From Terriglobia bacterium (GTDB lineage Bacteria; Acidobacteriota; Terriglobia; Versatilivoradales; Versatilivoraceae): a stretch of DNA of 64,000 nt. The notes under the pieces were generated by a model. It was not told where the DNA came from. It saw only the letters and a program-made list of their open reading frames with translations, and did not search any database. How positions within the stretch are numbered: position 1 is the first letter of the stretch; each line of letters starts with the position of its first letter. A program made the translations under genes and the position numbers. The stretch spans positions 26,571 through 90,570 of the forward strand of contig JAKUNG010000019.1 in NCBI GenBank assembly GCA_022452285.1. The letters are read 5' to 3'. Shown here in pieces: positions 14,673 to 26,150 of this stretch.

Positions 14673-15722
14673 ATGTTACTTCATTCTATTTGTTTAAAAG
14701 GTAGAGCAACAAACTTTGTTTATTGGATAGGAATCTTTTCAGTTTGCTTTATATCACTTTTGCCATCAACTGCCTTTTATGCCAAGCCTTTGGGACTAGT
14801 ATTTGCTTCAGTGGCCAAAGGTAAAGAACTTTTAGTGGTAAGGGATGAGTTCATTAAACAATTAAGTCCTTTTGATAGATCTGCAAGATTAAAGGTCTCA
14901 ACAGATGTTACAGAGAAAGAATTTCTTGATTTTATAAGTAGACAAGTTCTTCCATGGCAAGTAGACGAACAAAAAATTTTTTTGAGGGCAATAAAAAGAA
15001 TTGAGTTAGAATTAACAAAGTTCTGCCTCAATTTTCCTAACACTATTTATCTAATTAAAACAACTGGTAAAGAAGAAGGGGATGCTGCCTATACTCGAGG
15101 TCAAGCAATTATTATTCCTCAAAACAGATTGGAGTCACCTCAAGAAGAATTCAATCATCTTGTTGCCCACGAACTATTCCATATCCTTTCACGTTACCAA
15201 GAGGAATTACGGGATCAACTCTATCAACTTATTGGTTTTAAAAAATACAATAAACATTTTTTTCCGACTGAGTTAGAAGATCAAAAGATAACAAATCCTG
15301 ATGCACCAATGAATCTTCATTGGATTCACATCAAATATAAAGACAACTTTTTTTGGGCTGCCCCGATTTTATTTTCTAAAACAAAGCGGTACGATTCTCA
15401 GCAAGGAGACAGCTTTTTTCAGTATTTGGAGTTTCGATTATTATTAATATCAGCTACTAGTGACGAGTTGCCTTTAATTTTGGATGAACATGAATTCGAG
15501 CTGGTTAAGATAGAAGAAGTGTCTGGTTTTTTTGATCAGATTGGTAGAAACACCCAATATGTAATCCATCCAGAGGAAATTATAGCTGAAAACTTTGCTT
15601 TTATCGTCTTGGGGAAAAACCAGTTACCTTCTTCTATAATTTTGGAGAAAATTAGAGTTTTGCTGAAAAAGAGTTCCAACAAATGTAGCAATCCTCAGTC
15701 TTTAAAAACAAGATCTTTCTAA
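14673..15722 (+). CDS. Secreted putative zinc metallopeptidase (HExxH)
   Basis: Signal-like N-terminus; NHLVAHELFHILSRYQ (HExxH at 15168-15182). Confidence 0.6.
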   Translation: MLLHSICLKGRATNFVYWIGIFSVCFISLLPSTAFYAKPLGLVFASVAKGKELLVVRDEFIKQLSPFDRSARLKVSTDVTEKEFLDFISRQVLPWQVDEQKIFLRAIKRIELELTKFCLNFPNTIYLIKTTGKEEGDAAYTRGQAIIIPQNRLESPQEEFNHLVAHELFHILSRYQEELRDQLYQLIGFKKYNKHFFPTELEDQKITNPDAPMNLHWIHIKYKDNFFWAAPILFSKTKRYDSQQGDSFFQYLEFRLLLISATSDELPLILDEHEFELVKIEEVSGFFDQIGRNTQYVIHPEEIIAENFAFIVLGKNQLPSSIILEKIRVLLKKSSNKCSNPQSLKTRSF

Positions 15723-19108: not shown

Positions 19109-19194
19109 TTTAGAAGAAATGAAGTGGTTCAAGAATCAATATTTTGTAGGATTCCTTCCAAACTAAAGTAAAAAATAGACAAAATGAGGTTTCA

Positions 19195-20871
19195 TTGCTA
19201 ACACTAGGTGAAACTAATGCCTACCAGAGACGGAATGACTTAGATGCTCTCCGCACCTTTGCGATGCTGTTGGGAATTGTATTGCATGCTGGTTTATCAT
19301 TTGCAAATGTTCCTTGGGTAGTACAAGACATACAGCGAAACGATGTATTTAGCATCTTATTCGCGGCTATCCATGGTTTTCGGATGCCCTTATTTTTTGT
19401 GATGAGTGGTTTTTTTACCGCTATGCTTTGGAAAAACTTTGGATTAAAGAAGTTAGTGAAACATCGAATTCGCCGCATATTAGTTCCCCTTTTATTAGGA
19501 CTTATTACTGTTATTCCTCTCCAAAATTGGATTATTGGCTTAGCTTTAGAAAAATCTTTTAAAAATAAAAGAGAGATAGGAGCTACTAGCAATACAGAAT
19601 CTAATATCTGGATAGATGCTAAATTAGGCAATCTTAATGGAATTGATCGACACCTGACTAAGGGAGTAGATATTAATGCCTTAGATAGAAGATTAGGAAT
19701 AACTCCTTTGTGTTTGGCTTCAAGTTCTGGGGAAATAGAAGCAGTCCAGTTCATGATTCAAAAAAATGCTGAGGTAAACAGAAAAAATAGTGATGGTGGA
19801 ACTCCTTTGCATTGTGCGGCTATTTTTGGTCGAATCCAACTTGTTGATCTCCTAGTTAAGAATGGTGCAGATGTTAATGTCAGGACTAATGAAGGACTCA
19901 CAGCGATAGATGCTGCTCAGCTTGATATGCGCACAACCTTGTTTGTGGCAGGCATTTTAGACATTGAATTGGATGGGCAAAAAATTAAGGAAAATAAACA
20001 AAGAACTATAGAGATGTTAGAAAAACAGGGTTCTAAGTTAACCAAAGGTAGACCTATTCAAAAGGGAGGGCAGATTAAAAAGAAATCGGACAACTTATGG
20101 GTCGGTTTAATGTATACGCCGGTGTTACATCACCTCTGGTTTCTATGGCACCTTACTTGGCTCCTTTCATTTTTTGTTTTGATGATCCTAGTTGTTCAGT
20201 GGTTGCCATCACTAAAATATCCTGAGTGGTTAATGTCATTATCAGGATGGTATTTATTATTGGTTCCATTAACAATGATTTTTCAGTCATTTATGGGATC
20301 TGGTGGCAAAGTGTCAAGTTTTGGACCAGATCTTTCAGCTGGGATTCTACCCATACCGCATGTTCTGGGATTTTATGCCCTCTTTTTTGGTTTCGGCATT
20401 ATTTACCATGTCTGTGATGGCTTTGACAGACAAATTAGTAAAGGATGGTGGATAACCTTGCTAATTGGATTATTTGTCATCTTCCCATTTGGATTAGCTA
20501 CTACTTTTCAGTTAGATGGCAATTCTAAAATTAACTCTTTTCTTTCAGTCCTCTTCCAAGCGACATACACATGGATGATGATTTTTGGTTTAATGGGTAT
20601 GTTTAGGAAATTTTTCTCCAAGACAAGTAAAAACATACGTTATTTGTCTGATGCCTCATATTGGCTTTATTTGATGCACTTGCCTCTAATTATTCTAAGT
20701 CAAATAATAATCCAAGAATGGGAATTTCCAGCTACCCTTAAATTCTTACTAATCTGTACAGTCATTACTGCCTTTTTGCTATTGATATATCAAAACTTAG
20801 TCCGATATAGCTGGTTGGGTGCTTTACTGAATGGACGACGAAACCTAAAATCTAATCCAAAAATAGACTAA
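19195..20871 (+). CDS. Acyltransferase-3 family integral membrane protein with internal ankyrin-repeat insertion
   Basis: Acyltransferase_3 features NDLDALRTFAMLLGIVLHAGL, PLFFVMSGFF, HRIRRILVPLLLG ... LHHLWFLWHL, SYWLYLMHLPLI; ankyrin repeats ITPLCLASSSGEIEAVQFMIQKNAEVNRKNSDGGTPLHCAAIFGRIQLVDLLVKNGADVNVRTNEGLTAIDAA between them. TTG start. Confidence 0.88.
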   Translation: MLTLGETNAYQRRNDLDALRTFAMLLGIVLHAGLSFANVPWVVQDIQRNDVFSILFAAIHGFRMPLFFVMSGFFTAMLWKNFGLKKLVKHRIRRILVPLLLGLITVIPLQNWIIGLALEKSFKNKREIGATSNTESNIWIDAKLGNLNGIDRHLTKGVDINALDRRLGITPLCLASSSGEIEAVQFMIQKNAEVNRKNSDGGTPLHCAAIFGRIQLVDLLVKNGADVNVRTNEGLTAIDAAQLDMRTTLFVAGILDIELDGQKIKENKQRTIEMLEKQGSKLTKGRPIQKGGQIKKKSDNLWVGLMYTPVLHHLWFLWHLTWLLSFFVLMILVVQWLPSLKYPEWLMSLSGWYLLLVPLTMIFQSFMGSGGKVSSFGPDLSAGILPIPHVLGFYALFFGFGIIYHVCDGFDRQISKGWWITLLIGLFVIFPFGLATTFQLDGNSKINSFLSVLFQATYTWMMIFGLMGMFRKFFSKTSKNIRYLSDASYWLYLMHLPLIILSQIIIQEWEFPATLKFLLICTVITAFLLLIYQNLVRYSWLGALLNGRRNLKSNPKID

Positions 20872-21822: not shown

Positions 21823-23256
21823 TTAAGCTAAAATTTCTTTTATTACTCTTCCATGAACATCTGTTAGTCGAAAGTCCCGGCCACTATATCGGTATGTCAG
21901 TCTTTCATGGTCAAAGCCTAGCAGATTTAAGATTGTCGCATGTAGGTCGTGAGGATGGACTTTATTTTCAACGGCCCTAAACCCAAAGTCATCTGTACTT
22001 CCATAGGTCATTCCTCCTTTTACACCGCCACCTGCCATCCAAACCGAGTAACCCCAATGGTTATGGTCTCGTCCATTTTGAACAATGCTGGCTCCACTAG
22101 TTTCGACTGCAGGAGTACGACCAAATTCACTTCCACAGACTACAAGGGTATCTTCAAAAAGTCCACGCTCCTTCAAGTCATGAAGCAAGGCTGCCATCGC
22201 AGGGTCAGCTTCACGAGCTAGCTTTTGATGAGCCATGATATCGTAGTGGCTATCCCAGGGCTGGCCTGTCCCAAAATAAACTTGAACCATTCGAACTCCT
22301 CGTTCAACCAGACGTAATGCCATAAGACAGCCTCTAGCAAAGTCCCCCTGACCATACCTTTTTATGGTCGCTGCTGTTTCTTTAGAGAGGTCGAAAACTT
22401 CGGGAGCTTCAGCCTGCATCCGATAAGCAATTTCCATTGCATGGATACTACCTTCCAATTGAGGATCATCTGGGCGTTTCTGGCCATGAAGATTATTTAG
22501 TTGTCCAAGCAAATCAAGTTGCTGACGCTGCTGAGCCGGGGTAACATGTTGATTTTGAATGTCTTGAATAAGTTTTTCAGGAGTTCTCTCGTTATTGGGT
22601 ATCCGAGTACCTTGGTATACGGCAGGGAGAAATGCTGAGTTCCATAGAGAAGTGCCTCCAGTAGGAGGGCCTCCAGAAGGGCATAGAACAATGAATCCAG
22701 GTAAATTCTGATTTTCTGTCCCTAAACCATAGGTTATCCAGGAACCTACGGAAGGACGACCTGGTTGAAGGTGCCCGGAATTCATTAAAAACATTCCTGG
22801 ACCATGGTTAGGAACATCAGTATACATAGACCGAATCACACAAATATCATCAATATGTTCAGCCACTTTAGAAAAAAGTTCACTGACCTCAATCCCACTT
22901 TGACCATATTTTTTGAACTGGAAAGGTGATCTCATAAGATTACCAGTTTTACGTTCAGTTTTGAGATATTCCCCTGGCATTGGTTGTCCATCATATTTTG
23001 TTAACATTGGTTTGGGGTCAAAAGTATCAACTTCTGAAAGACCTCCATTCATAAAGAGGTAGATGACCCGTTTCGCTTTGGCGGGGAAGTGAGTTGCCTT
23101 AATGGCCAAAGGATTACTCGGATTGGAGGCTGAATCTGCTAGGAAGCCAGAATTTTCGAGCAGACTAGCATAACCATACATTCCAAAGCCACCACCTATC
23201 ATATGCAGTAGGTCACGACGGTTAATAAAAGGATTATTAGATTTTGTATTTGTCAC
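21823..23256 (-). CDS. DUF1501 domain-containing protein (Tat signal)
   Basis: NRRDLLHMIGGGFG, RVIYLFMNGGLSEVDTFDPKP, GSEFGRTPAVE, GRDHNHWGYSVWMAGGGVKGG. Confidence 0.95.
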   Translation of the reverse strand: MTNTKSNNPFINRRDLLHMIGGGFGMYGYASLLENSGFLADSASNPSNPLAIKATHFPAKAKRVIYLFMNGGLSEVDTFDPKPMLTKYDGQPMPGEYLKTERKTGNLMRSPFQFKKYGQSGIEVSELFSKVAEHIDDICVIRSMYTDVPNHGPGMFLMNSGHLQPGRPSVGSWITYGLGTENQNLPGFIVLCPSGGPPTGGTSLWNSAFLPAVYQGTRIPNNERTPEKLIQDIQNQHVTPAQQRQQLDLLGQLNNLHGQKRPDDPQLEGSIHAMEIAYRMQAEAPEVFDLSKETAATIKRYGQGDFARGCLMALRLVERGVRMVQVYFGTGQPWDSHYDIMAHQKLAREADPAMAALLHDLKERGLFEDTLVVCGSEFGRTPAVETSGASIVQNGRDHNHWGYSVWMAGGGVKGGMTYGSTDDFGFRAVENKVHPHDLHATILNLLGFDHERLTYRYSGRDFRLTDVHGRVIKEILA

Positions 23257-23279
23257 GTCTTGTCTTCTTTTTTAACTAG

Positions 23280-26150
23280 TCAATCAATGAAAAAGAACTC
23301 ATTTGAACTCATAAGGGTCTGTAAATATTGTTGTAAGACAACTAATTGATCATTACTTTGATGATTATTGGCATTAATAAAATTCATAGCCAGTGTAATT
23401 TCATTGGACGACGGTTTTCGACCAAACATAAGTTGGTAGACTGAATCAATCGTCTGTGAACCAATGGGTTTACCATCTACGCTGAAAGTCTTAGCAAGAA
23501 TCCCAGCTTGATTCCATACCAAGTCACTATTAAGGAAAAAAAGTCTCTGTGAAGGGATATTTGTGACCAATCTTTGCTGGCTGCTCAAACTAGGGTCTGG
23601 AAAATCAAAAAGTGTTAATACATTGGCCACTTTAGACCGCTTAACTTGTCCGTAAACTGTTCGACGACTTTCATCCTTTGACAGATTTACTGAGGTCCCC
23701 CCAATACTCGAATTCATTCTGCCAGACACTGACAAAATAGAATCGCGCAAAGATTCAGCATCTAATCTACGTCGATTAGTCCGCCAAAGCCAACGATTTT
23801 CTGGATCTTTAGCATGATGAACTGCAGAATGCTGGCTACTTTGTTGATAAGTAGCTGAATGTAGAATTTCTCTGTGTAGGGCTTTTATTGAATAATTATG
23901 TTGGATAAACTGATGGGTAAGGTATTCAAGTAGTTTTGGATGAGAAGGAAACTCTCCTAAACGTCCGAAATTACTAGGAGTCCTCACAATGCCCTGGCCG
24001 AAGTGGTGTTGCCAGACTCGATTGACTATTACTCGAGCTGTTAAAGGTTGGTTAGCAATTGATTCAGCAAGTTGCAAACGGCCGCTTCCAATTTTGAATG
24101 GTTTAGGCTTTTCTTTAGTCAGGACGGTAAGGAATTTTCTAGGAGTCTTTGCTCCCAAAACATAGGGATTGCCTCGAATATGGACCTGTGAGTCCTGAGG
24201 GCTTGGGGAATCGGTCATTCCATGAGTGTAAAGGTATTTTGGAGGTTCACTTTTTTTTAGACTCTCTAGCTGACTGCGCAATGTGTCTAAATATATTTTC
24301 CATTCCCCTTCTAAAAATCTTTCCAGTTTTTTACCTTGAAGTCGAAACAGGCCATATTCTTCTTTCATGAAACTGTTTGTAAGGTCTGTATTTCCAAAGA
24401 GGTCAAGCCACAAAATGTATTTTTCTCTATTGATAGGTTCAATCGATATCTCACAGATACCACAGCCTGCTTCGGGAAGAAATCCATTGGGAAGATAAGC
24501 AACATTGAGATTTTTCTTTGGTTTGTTTGATTCCAAGATGATTTTATTTTTCTCATCTTGAATTTTTTTTTCAGAGAAGATGGTCAAAGCTAATGACTGA
24601 AAGTCAGCAGCTATTGTTTGCACCTGTTCTAAGGATCCACCCTCAGTTCTTAGCTTGTCCCACTTTTTAAGATAGGGATGTAGTCTTTCATCACTTGTTA
24701 AATATTTAAACCACCCTTCCAATAGCTCCTGATCTATTTCTTCAGACTGGGCTAGTGTTGAAAAAGAAAGGTCAGGATTATTTAGTATTTTCCAAGTAGC
24801 AATCAGATACCGAGAGGTTTTCCATGCTAACATTTCACTGAGTTGGATGGACTGTTGGTTAAGGAAATCTTTTATCGAGGATTCCAGACCTTTTAATTTT
24901 TCTTTATGTTCTTTATAAGCTTCTACTACTTCAGGGGGAGAAAGTGGGTATTCTTTATATATGGTACTAGCCATAATTCCATCTAAAGCCCAGTAGTCCT
25001 CAAAAGCAATTGGATCATACTTGTGATCGTGGCACCTAGCACAACCTACTGTCAATCCTAGGAATCCACGAGTGATTGCATCAATACGGTCAAAACGTTC
25101 ATCAGCCCGGGCCTGAGGAGGTTCAAGAACGTTATAATACCAGATACCTAGACCTAAAAATCCTGTTCCTGCCAATAGCTGTTCTCGGTTTTTTGTCTGT
25201 AGTAGGTCCCCAGCAATTTGTGATTTAACAAAAAGATCAAAAGGCATGTCATTGTTAAAGGCCTCAATTACCCAATCTCTATAACGCCAAGCATTGAGGT
25301 ATTCCGAATTTCCTTCCGGTCCAAAGATATCATCTTCGGCATATCGAGCAACGTCTAGCCAATGTCGTCCCCAGCGTTCTCCATAGTGCGGAGAGCTTAA
25401 TAGTCGATCCACCAATTTTGTCCATGCTTGTGGCGACTTATCATTCAGGAAGACCTCAATTTCTGAAGGTGTTGGAGGTAATCCTATGAGATCAAAAGTA
25501 ATTCGTCGGATTAATTCGTTCTTCGTAGCTAGTTGAGATGGATTAAGATTTACTGCTTCGAGCTGTGCCAAGATAAAATAGTCAATCGAAGATTGAGGCC
25601 ATTTTTTATCTTCTATCCTTGGTAACTGGGGTAATTGTACGGGTTGAAAAGCCCAATAATTCTTATCATTTTCTGAGATAGTAAATGTTTGGTTGTTTTC
25701 ATTGGACGGTATACTGCTAATGGGATTTTCTGGCCAGGGAGCTCCAATTTTAATCCAATGGGTCAAGTCTAATATTTCGTGATCTTTTAGTTTCTCACCA
25801 AGTGGCATACGTAATCGCTGGTGACTATGATCTATGACTTGAATGAGTAAGCTTTTTTCTGGTTTTCCCGGTACTATGGCGGGCCCCAATGTTCCACCTT
25901 GGATCAATCCATCACGGGAATCTAAGCGGAGTCCACTACTAATTACTTCACTGTGACAGCTATAACATTTATTTATTAGCAATGGGCGAATTCGAACTTC
26001 AAAGAAATCATTGGAATCTTGAGATAGTAATGGAGTTTTACCAAAAAAGGGAATCATCATAATTCCAACAAGTATTGGGCATACTTTTCCAGCAAAAGAG
26101 AAATGTAGTCTGGAATTTTTATTTGAAAACTTATTAATTAATAAAGACAT
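23280..26150 (-). CDS. PSD1 / DUF1549-DUF1553 protein with N-terminal Planctomycete-type cytochrome c domain
   Basis: KCYSCHSEVISSGLRLDSRDGLIQGG (CxxCH), DFDLIGLPPTPSEI-type, HYGERWGRHWLDVARYAEDD, GCARCHDHKYDPI, ARVIVNRVWQHHFGQGIV. Confidence 0.95.
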   Translation of the reverse strand: MSLLINKFSNKNSRLHFSFAGKVCPILVGIMMIPFFGKTPLLSQDSNDFFEVRIRPLLINKCYSCHSEVISSGLRLDSRDGLIQGGTLGPAIVPGKPEKSLLIQVIDHSHQRLRMPLGEKLKDHEILDLTHWIKIGAPWPENPISSIPSNENNQTFTISENDKNYWAFQPVQLPQLPRIEDKKWPQSSIDYFILAQLEAVNLNPSQLATKNELIRRITFDLIGLPPTPSEIEVFLNDKSPQAWTKLVDRLLSSPHYGERWGRHWLDVARYAEDDIFGPEGNSEYLNAWRYRDWVIEAFNNDMPFDLFVKSQIAGDLLQTKNREQLLAGTGFLGLGIWYYNVLEPPQARADERFDRIDAITRGFLGLTVGCARCHDHKYDPIAFEDYWALDGIMASTIYKEYPLSPPEVVEAYKEHKEKLKGLESSIKDFLNQQSIQLSEMLAWKTSRYLIATWKILNNPDLSFSTLAQSEEIDQELLEGWFKYLTSDERLHPYLKKWDKLRTEGGSLEQVQTIAADFQSLALTIFSEKKIQDEKNKIILESNKPKKNLNVAYLPNGFLPEAGCGICEISIEPINREKYILWLDLFGNTDLTNSFMKEEYGLFRLQGKKLERFLEGEWKIYLDTLRSQLESLKKSEPPKYLYTHGMTDSPSPQDSQVHIRGNPYVLGAKTPRKFLTVLTKEKPKPFKIGSGRLQLAESIANQPLTARVIVNRVWQHHFGQGIVRTPSNFGRLGEFPSHPKLLEYLTHQFIQHNYSIKALHREILHSATYQQSSQHSAVHHAKDPENRWLWRTNRRRLDAESLRDSILSVSGRMNSSIGGTSVNLSKDESRRTVYGQVKRSKVANVLTLFDFPDPSLSSQQRLVTNIPSQRLFFLNSDLVWNQAGILAKTFSVDGKPIGSQTIDSVYQLMFGRKPSSNEITLAMNFINANNHQSNDQLVVLQQYLQTLMSSNEFFFID

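Follow-up and report, generated by a model that had tools for sequence, protein, structure and literature searches.

An acyltransferase-3 membrane protein with an ankyrin module built into its TM3-TM4 loop

The AT3-ankyrin gene and its surroundings

We analyzed a 64,000-nt stretch of a contig from a Terriglobia bacterium (assembly GCA_022452285.1, contig JAKUNG010000019.1; hereafter, the window), which carries a gene for an acyltransferase-3 (AT3) protein interrupted by ankyrin repeats (Table 1). The first-pass annotation of this DNA, made from the letters alone, had described an AT3 fold split by an ankyrin insert within a single frame, and both the Pfam matches and an AlphaFold2 model agree with this description. 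The frame is open throughout, with no internal stop. Moreover, the domain scan that the annotation had named as a check on its own reading found Acyl_transf_3 together with the ankyrin families (Ank_4/Ank_2) in all 23 full or near-full insert-bearing proteins, the window protein included. The single frame and the recurrence of the same architecture in dozens of genomes rule out an assembly chimera. A foreign contig is likewise ruled out: an HflC-like gene near the AT3-ankyrin gene is 74-77% identical to its counterparts in genomes of the same family, so that the contig (C11) can be considered native. No full-length match to the AT3-ankyrin protein was found on plasmids.

Table 1. Features of the AT3-ankyrin gene, in window coordinates
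Feature	Position	Strand	Basis or remarks
GAGG, possible ribosome-binding site, 5 nt 5' of TTG	19186..19189	+	Read directly
AT3-ankyrin gene	19195..20871	+	558 aa, TTG start; ORF calling, Pfam, homologues
AT3 N-terminal part, TM1-TM3 (residues 14-128)	19234..19578	+	Pfam 14-116; helices 14-36, 50-82, 84-128
R-X10-H motif (R20, H31), TM1	19252..19287	+	Invariant 23/23; motif as in PMC9833829
RXXR motif (R91, R94), cytoplasmic end of TM3	19465..19476	+	Invariant 23/23
Ankyrin module, four repeats and C-terminal cap helix 261-277	19603..20025	+	Pfam, AlphaFold2, module HMM positions 1-141
Low-confidence basic linker (residues 278-292)	20026..20070	+	pLDDT falls to 43-51
Short helix before TM4 (residues 293-307)	20071..20115	+	Insert-free relatives keep pre-TM4 helix
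AT3 C-terminal part, TM4-TM10 (residues 312-547), starts HHLWFLW	20128..20835	+	Pfam second stretch; helices
FGPDLS, outer loop TM5-6 (GPDTS in nearly all relatives)	20320..20337	+	G377, P378, D379 invariant 23/23

Elsewhere in the window, a 349-aa protein (14673-15722, + strand) gave a borderline match to eCIS_core (21.8 bits, cut-off 22), and the stretch 21823-26150 (- strand) holds a DUF1501 gene and, following it, a 956-aa gene resembling a planctomycete-type cytochrome protein. DUF1501 genes also occur near AT3-ankyrin genes at four other loci (L115, L116, L117, L127), possibly by chance, such genes being abundant. The same assembly contains a second AT3 N-terminal fragment (L002, G000:C30:7224-7656), which is cut by the contig end right at a possible start of an ankyrin module (IEDIWTPIF); this contig may be a contaminant, the contamination of the assembly being 7%.

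An intact AT3 core

The window protein belongs to the AT3 family by its match to the Acyl_transf_3 profile (PF01757; 99.1 bits against a cut-off of 31, E 3.4e-28), which falls into two stretches flanking the ankyrin families. The AlphaFold2 model (mean pLDDT 84.9, pTM 0.78, most ankyrin blocks 81-98) contains ten long helices outside the ankyrin part and, together with the positive-inside charges described below, predicts the 10-TM, N-in arrangement of AT3 proteins. The protein stops after TM10 in this model, and Pfam gave no match to an SGNH domain. In addition to the motif residues listed in Table 1, H60, R63, W315 and F316 are invariant in 23/23 homologues, and the AT3-ankyrin proteins keep the R-X10-H, RXXR, HGFRM, LWF, GPD and YW..H residues.

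Structural searches with the whole protein were dominated by its repeats. The fold search with the whole model returned mostly DARPin/ankyrin matches (E about 3e-6 to 1e-5), and the best 60 rows of the PDB sequence search were nearly all ankyrin/DARPin chains and fusions aligned to the ankyrin part. With an insert-free relative, the PDB sequence search gave no matches, and the fold search placed HGSNAT among the top matches (probability up to 0.90, TM 0.35-0.43) at a non-significant E value. Transmembrane acyl transfer is established for AT3 proteins and, as the window protein preserves both its catalytic and its CoA-side motifs, would be the expected chemistry here as well. This protein is a membrane enzyme of the AT3 kind with an ankyrin domain built in.

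A capped ankyrin module at a constant site

The ankyrin part matched Pfam families above their curated cut-offs (Ank_4, 1.4e-19; Ank_2, 1.9e-16, residues 142-230; Ank, 5.3e-15). The first-pass annotation had recognized ankyrin repeats correctly and counted about three; the AlphaFold2 model instead contains four helix pairs (138-155, 171-189, 204-222 and 237-255), followed by the cap. Of the limits it had given for the insert, about 19600-20090, the start holds (19603), whereas the module with its cap ends at 20025 and gives way to the low-confidence linker. Its placement of the insert in a loop between AT3 helices is borne out and can be made specific: in the model, the module sits between TM3 and the pre-TM4 helix, in the TM3-TM4 plug loop.

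The insertion point is the same across homologues. Between RXXR..P and LWF lie 34-65 aa in proteins without the insert and 169-381 aa in those with it, a bimodal distribution, and some AT3 proteins (L026, L092-L095) contain two modules. The intact AT3 core motifs, the insertion point and the four repeats with their cap are all well supported computationally.

The module is predicted to face outward

In published AT3 topology, the N-terminus and RXXR are cytoplasmic, and in OafB the TM3-TM4 loop is periplasmic and described as a movable plug of a central acyl-CoA pore, the proposed route of acyl-CoA to the outer face (PMC9833829). The charge distribution of the AT3-ankyrin family points the same way: across 23 homologues, K+R per residue is 0.12-0.34 in predicted inner loops, 0.015-0.086 in outer loops and 0.085 in the insert, which is net acidic on average (16.8 K+R vs 28.2 D+E). 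The agreement between these positive-inside charges and the published OafB topology supports the predicted extracytoplasmic location of the ankyrin domain.

The opposite arrangement, in which the topology would be inverted relative to known AT3 proteins and a cytoplasmic ankyrin domain would bind a cytosolic regulator, appears highly improbable to us. Ankyrin repeats are in general mostly cytosolic and the linker of the window protein is basic, its insert as a whole being slightly basic (28 K+R, 23 D+E), unlike the acidic family average; nevertheless, this arrangement runs against the charge pattern of the 23 homologues, the cytoplasmic N-terminus and RXXR of published AT3 proteins, and the position of the module in other proteins, where a TM segment or signal peptide precedes it (see below).

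A widespread but patchy architecture with a probable old insertion

Our scan of genome contigs yielded 41 loci with relatives, and about 37 homologues share the AT3-ankyrin architecture. The insert-bearing loci come mostly from Planctomycetota, with one from Verrucomicrobiia, one from Dehalococcoidia and others from Ilumatobacteraceae/Actinobacteria; the architecture is kept at about 30-45% identity in Planctomycetota, Chloroflexota, Actinomycetota and the phylum of the window. Of the named genomes compared, the Verrucomicrobiia genome came nearest for the FabH-like protein of the window (43%), at most a hint about the window's phylum. When the same query and threshold were applied to sampled genomes, matches were found in 18 of 392 from the phylum of a Phycisphaera genome (17 with the insert, G760 being insert-free) and in 2 of 396 from the window's own phylum. 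The full AT3-ankyrin protein was present in 0/11 genomes of the window's family. The architecture is therefore widespread yet patchy, the latter particularly near the window, as the counts of 2/396 and 0/11 indicate, and horizontal acquisition of the gene is plausible. No empty site could be recognized in the same-family genomes because HflC alone is conserved at the locus.

A tree of the AT3 core with the insert removed (47 rows) requires three changes in insert presence, best read as one old gain followed by two losses (L046 and L097), with weak support for the branch marking the gain (84/51). Forcing the insert-bearing proteins into one clade made the tree 46 log units worse and was mildly rejected (p-AU 0.03), a result expected from nested insert-free losses, although several gains would fit it too. 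A common origin of the architecture is well supported computationally. Apparently lost at least twice, the module seems dispensable in some relatives, and L046, which is 47% identical to the window protein, retains the AT3 fold.

These losses, the varying number of modules (one or two) and the weakly conserved linkers would suit a tolerated passenger, that is, an old insertion in a length-tolerant loop with no special role. We consider this explanation unlikely, given the constant insertion site and a conserved cap kept across four phyla at about 30-45% identity.

At a separate locus (L075, G021:C71), one contig carries two AT3 copies, one intact and insert-free; the frame of the second departs from AT3 sequence in the TM3-TM4 region, and a transposase-like ORF lies between the copies.

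The module in other proteins and the gene neighborhood

We built an HMM of the module from window residues 137-277. Its full-length matches, cap included, were confined to AT3-ankyrin proteins and two other protein kinds. The first is a single-TM protein with two modules after the TM, encoded directly 5' of the AT3-ankyrin gene at three loci (L009, L011, L013), and the second is a signal peptide-module-TM protein in L011; in every case seen outside AT3 proteins, the capped module thus follows a single hydrophobic segment or a signal peptide. Generic ankyrins, judged by the best matches in relatives, end near HMM position 105-116, without the cap. By a crude test, a hydrophobic segment lies 5' of the repeats in 20/28 generic ankyrin frames (L047-L074), such that exported ankyrins look common at these loci.

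In L009 and L013, a sigma-70 region 2 gene directly precedes the gene for the two-module TM protein. One could imagine that, in some planctomycetes, the AT3 enzyme and a preceding anti-sigma-like sensor share the module for the dedicated purpose of interaction outside the cytoplasm; via module-module or common-ligand binding, the sensor would inform the sigma factor of the state of the enzyme or of its acceptor. We regard this elaboration as quite improbable; the label 'anti-sigma-like' reflects layout and position, since the N-terminus of the two-module proteins has no Pfam match. The sigma-70 region 2, two-module TM and AT3-ankyrin genes abut or overlap at both loci (L009:2942-6428, L013:4114-7579). 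At three loci, the gene directly 3' of the AT3-ankyrin gene encodes a protein that combines a beta-propeller with a MauG-like cytochrome (L013:7582-10857, L016:1499-4846, L026:5314-8652).

Over about 40 loci, no conserved gene neighborhood or operon was found except in small lineage groups. The first-pass annotation had suggested that a partner regulates the enzyme or serves as its scaffold, which is a reasonable inference, although no partner was found and neighbors are conserved in one planctomycete lineage alone.

Discussion

We favor, with modest confidence, a reading in which an outward docking domain over the pore ties acyl transfer to an extracytoplasmic partner or acceptor. The inner-membrane AT3/TmAT core of ten helices would draw an acyl group from cytosolic acyl-CoA, carry it through the core and present it at the outer face. 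Above the pore and outside the membrane, the TM3-TM4 plug loop would hold the folded, capped ankyrin module, whose surface might dock or recognize a partner or acceptor outside the cytoplasm. Acyl transfer would then be tied to that partner, possibly through movement of the plug; we only infer the docking function and any gating.

The surface of the module also invites a second, more direct reading. Surface positions that normally vary in ankyrins hold conserved aromatics (FFGR, with F at 78% and 62%), and the GR in the cap is conserved; given, in addition, its location outside the membrane above the active face, the module might bind the acceptor glycan or lipid carrier itself as a substrate-specificity domain, playing, within one polypeptide and minus catalysis, the role of the SGNH domain of OafB. 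We hold this to be possible but doubtful: ankyrin domains generally bind proteins, the module is without catalytic residues, and a glycan-gene neighborhood was not found at the loci compared. It does accord with the action of AT3 enzymes on glycans described in PMC9558356.

Fusions of AT3 with SGNH and alanine racemase have been described (PMC9558356, PMC12423673), and PMC9833829 notes both of these as well as other fusions in Eukarya. Term searches of PMC9558356 and PMC12423673 showed no mention of ankyrin where this word was among the terms, and among the papers searched none paired ankyrin with Acyl_transf_3 or with acyltransferase-3 and domain architecture, further literature searches yielding nothing relevant; the pairing may be listed in Pfam/InterPro architecture tables. 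Hence, we found no description of the AT3-ankyrin design in the literature searched, the AT3 and ankyrin kinds themselves being known. Many bacteria modify their surface glycans with AT3 enzymes. A natural family with a folded, removable domain in the plug loop offers a direct test of the role of this loop, a comparison aided by insert-free relatives at 40-50% identity and by the two apparent losses. The design further extends ankyrin repeats to an extracytoplasmic role within membrane enzymes.

Among known systems, the AT3 part finds its best match to a curated family in MdoC/OpgC (NF003014, E 3e-43), an AT3 enzyme that adds succinyl groups to osmoregulated periplasmic glucans in a pathway where MdoG is needed for glucan synthesis. 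The insert-free relative L046 aligns with MdoC end to end, whereas the window protein differs by its ankyrin insert; it scores 148 bits, and its relatives 121-151, against an equivalog cut-off of 338, which excludes them from membership. MdoG is absent from the window's genome (G000) and was found in 2/25 genomes tested, being absent from the other 23. Both the low score and the missing MdoG speak against the classical glucan pathway, and periplasmic-glucan succinylation is not supported. HGSNAT, of the TmAT superfamily, shares transmembrane acyl transfer; the relation is remote, and HGSNAT has no ankyrin domain. Exported bacterial ankyrins of the periplasmic AnkB type likewise place ankyrin repeats outside the cytoplasm but are stand-alone, and the generic ankyrins examined are without the cap helix of the module. 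The AT3-SGNH fusions, such as OafB, have in common with the window protein the AT3 core, R-X10-H, RXXR and an extra soluble domain outside the membrane. In these fusions, however, the extra domain is catalytic and follows TM11, whereas the window protein carries non-catalytic repeats inside the TM3-TM4 plug loop itself.
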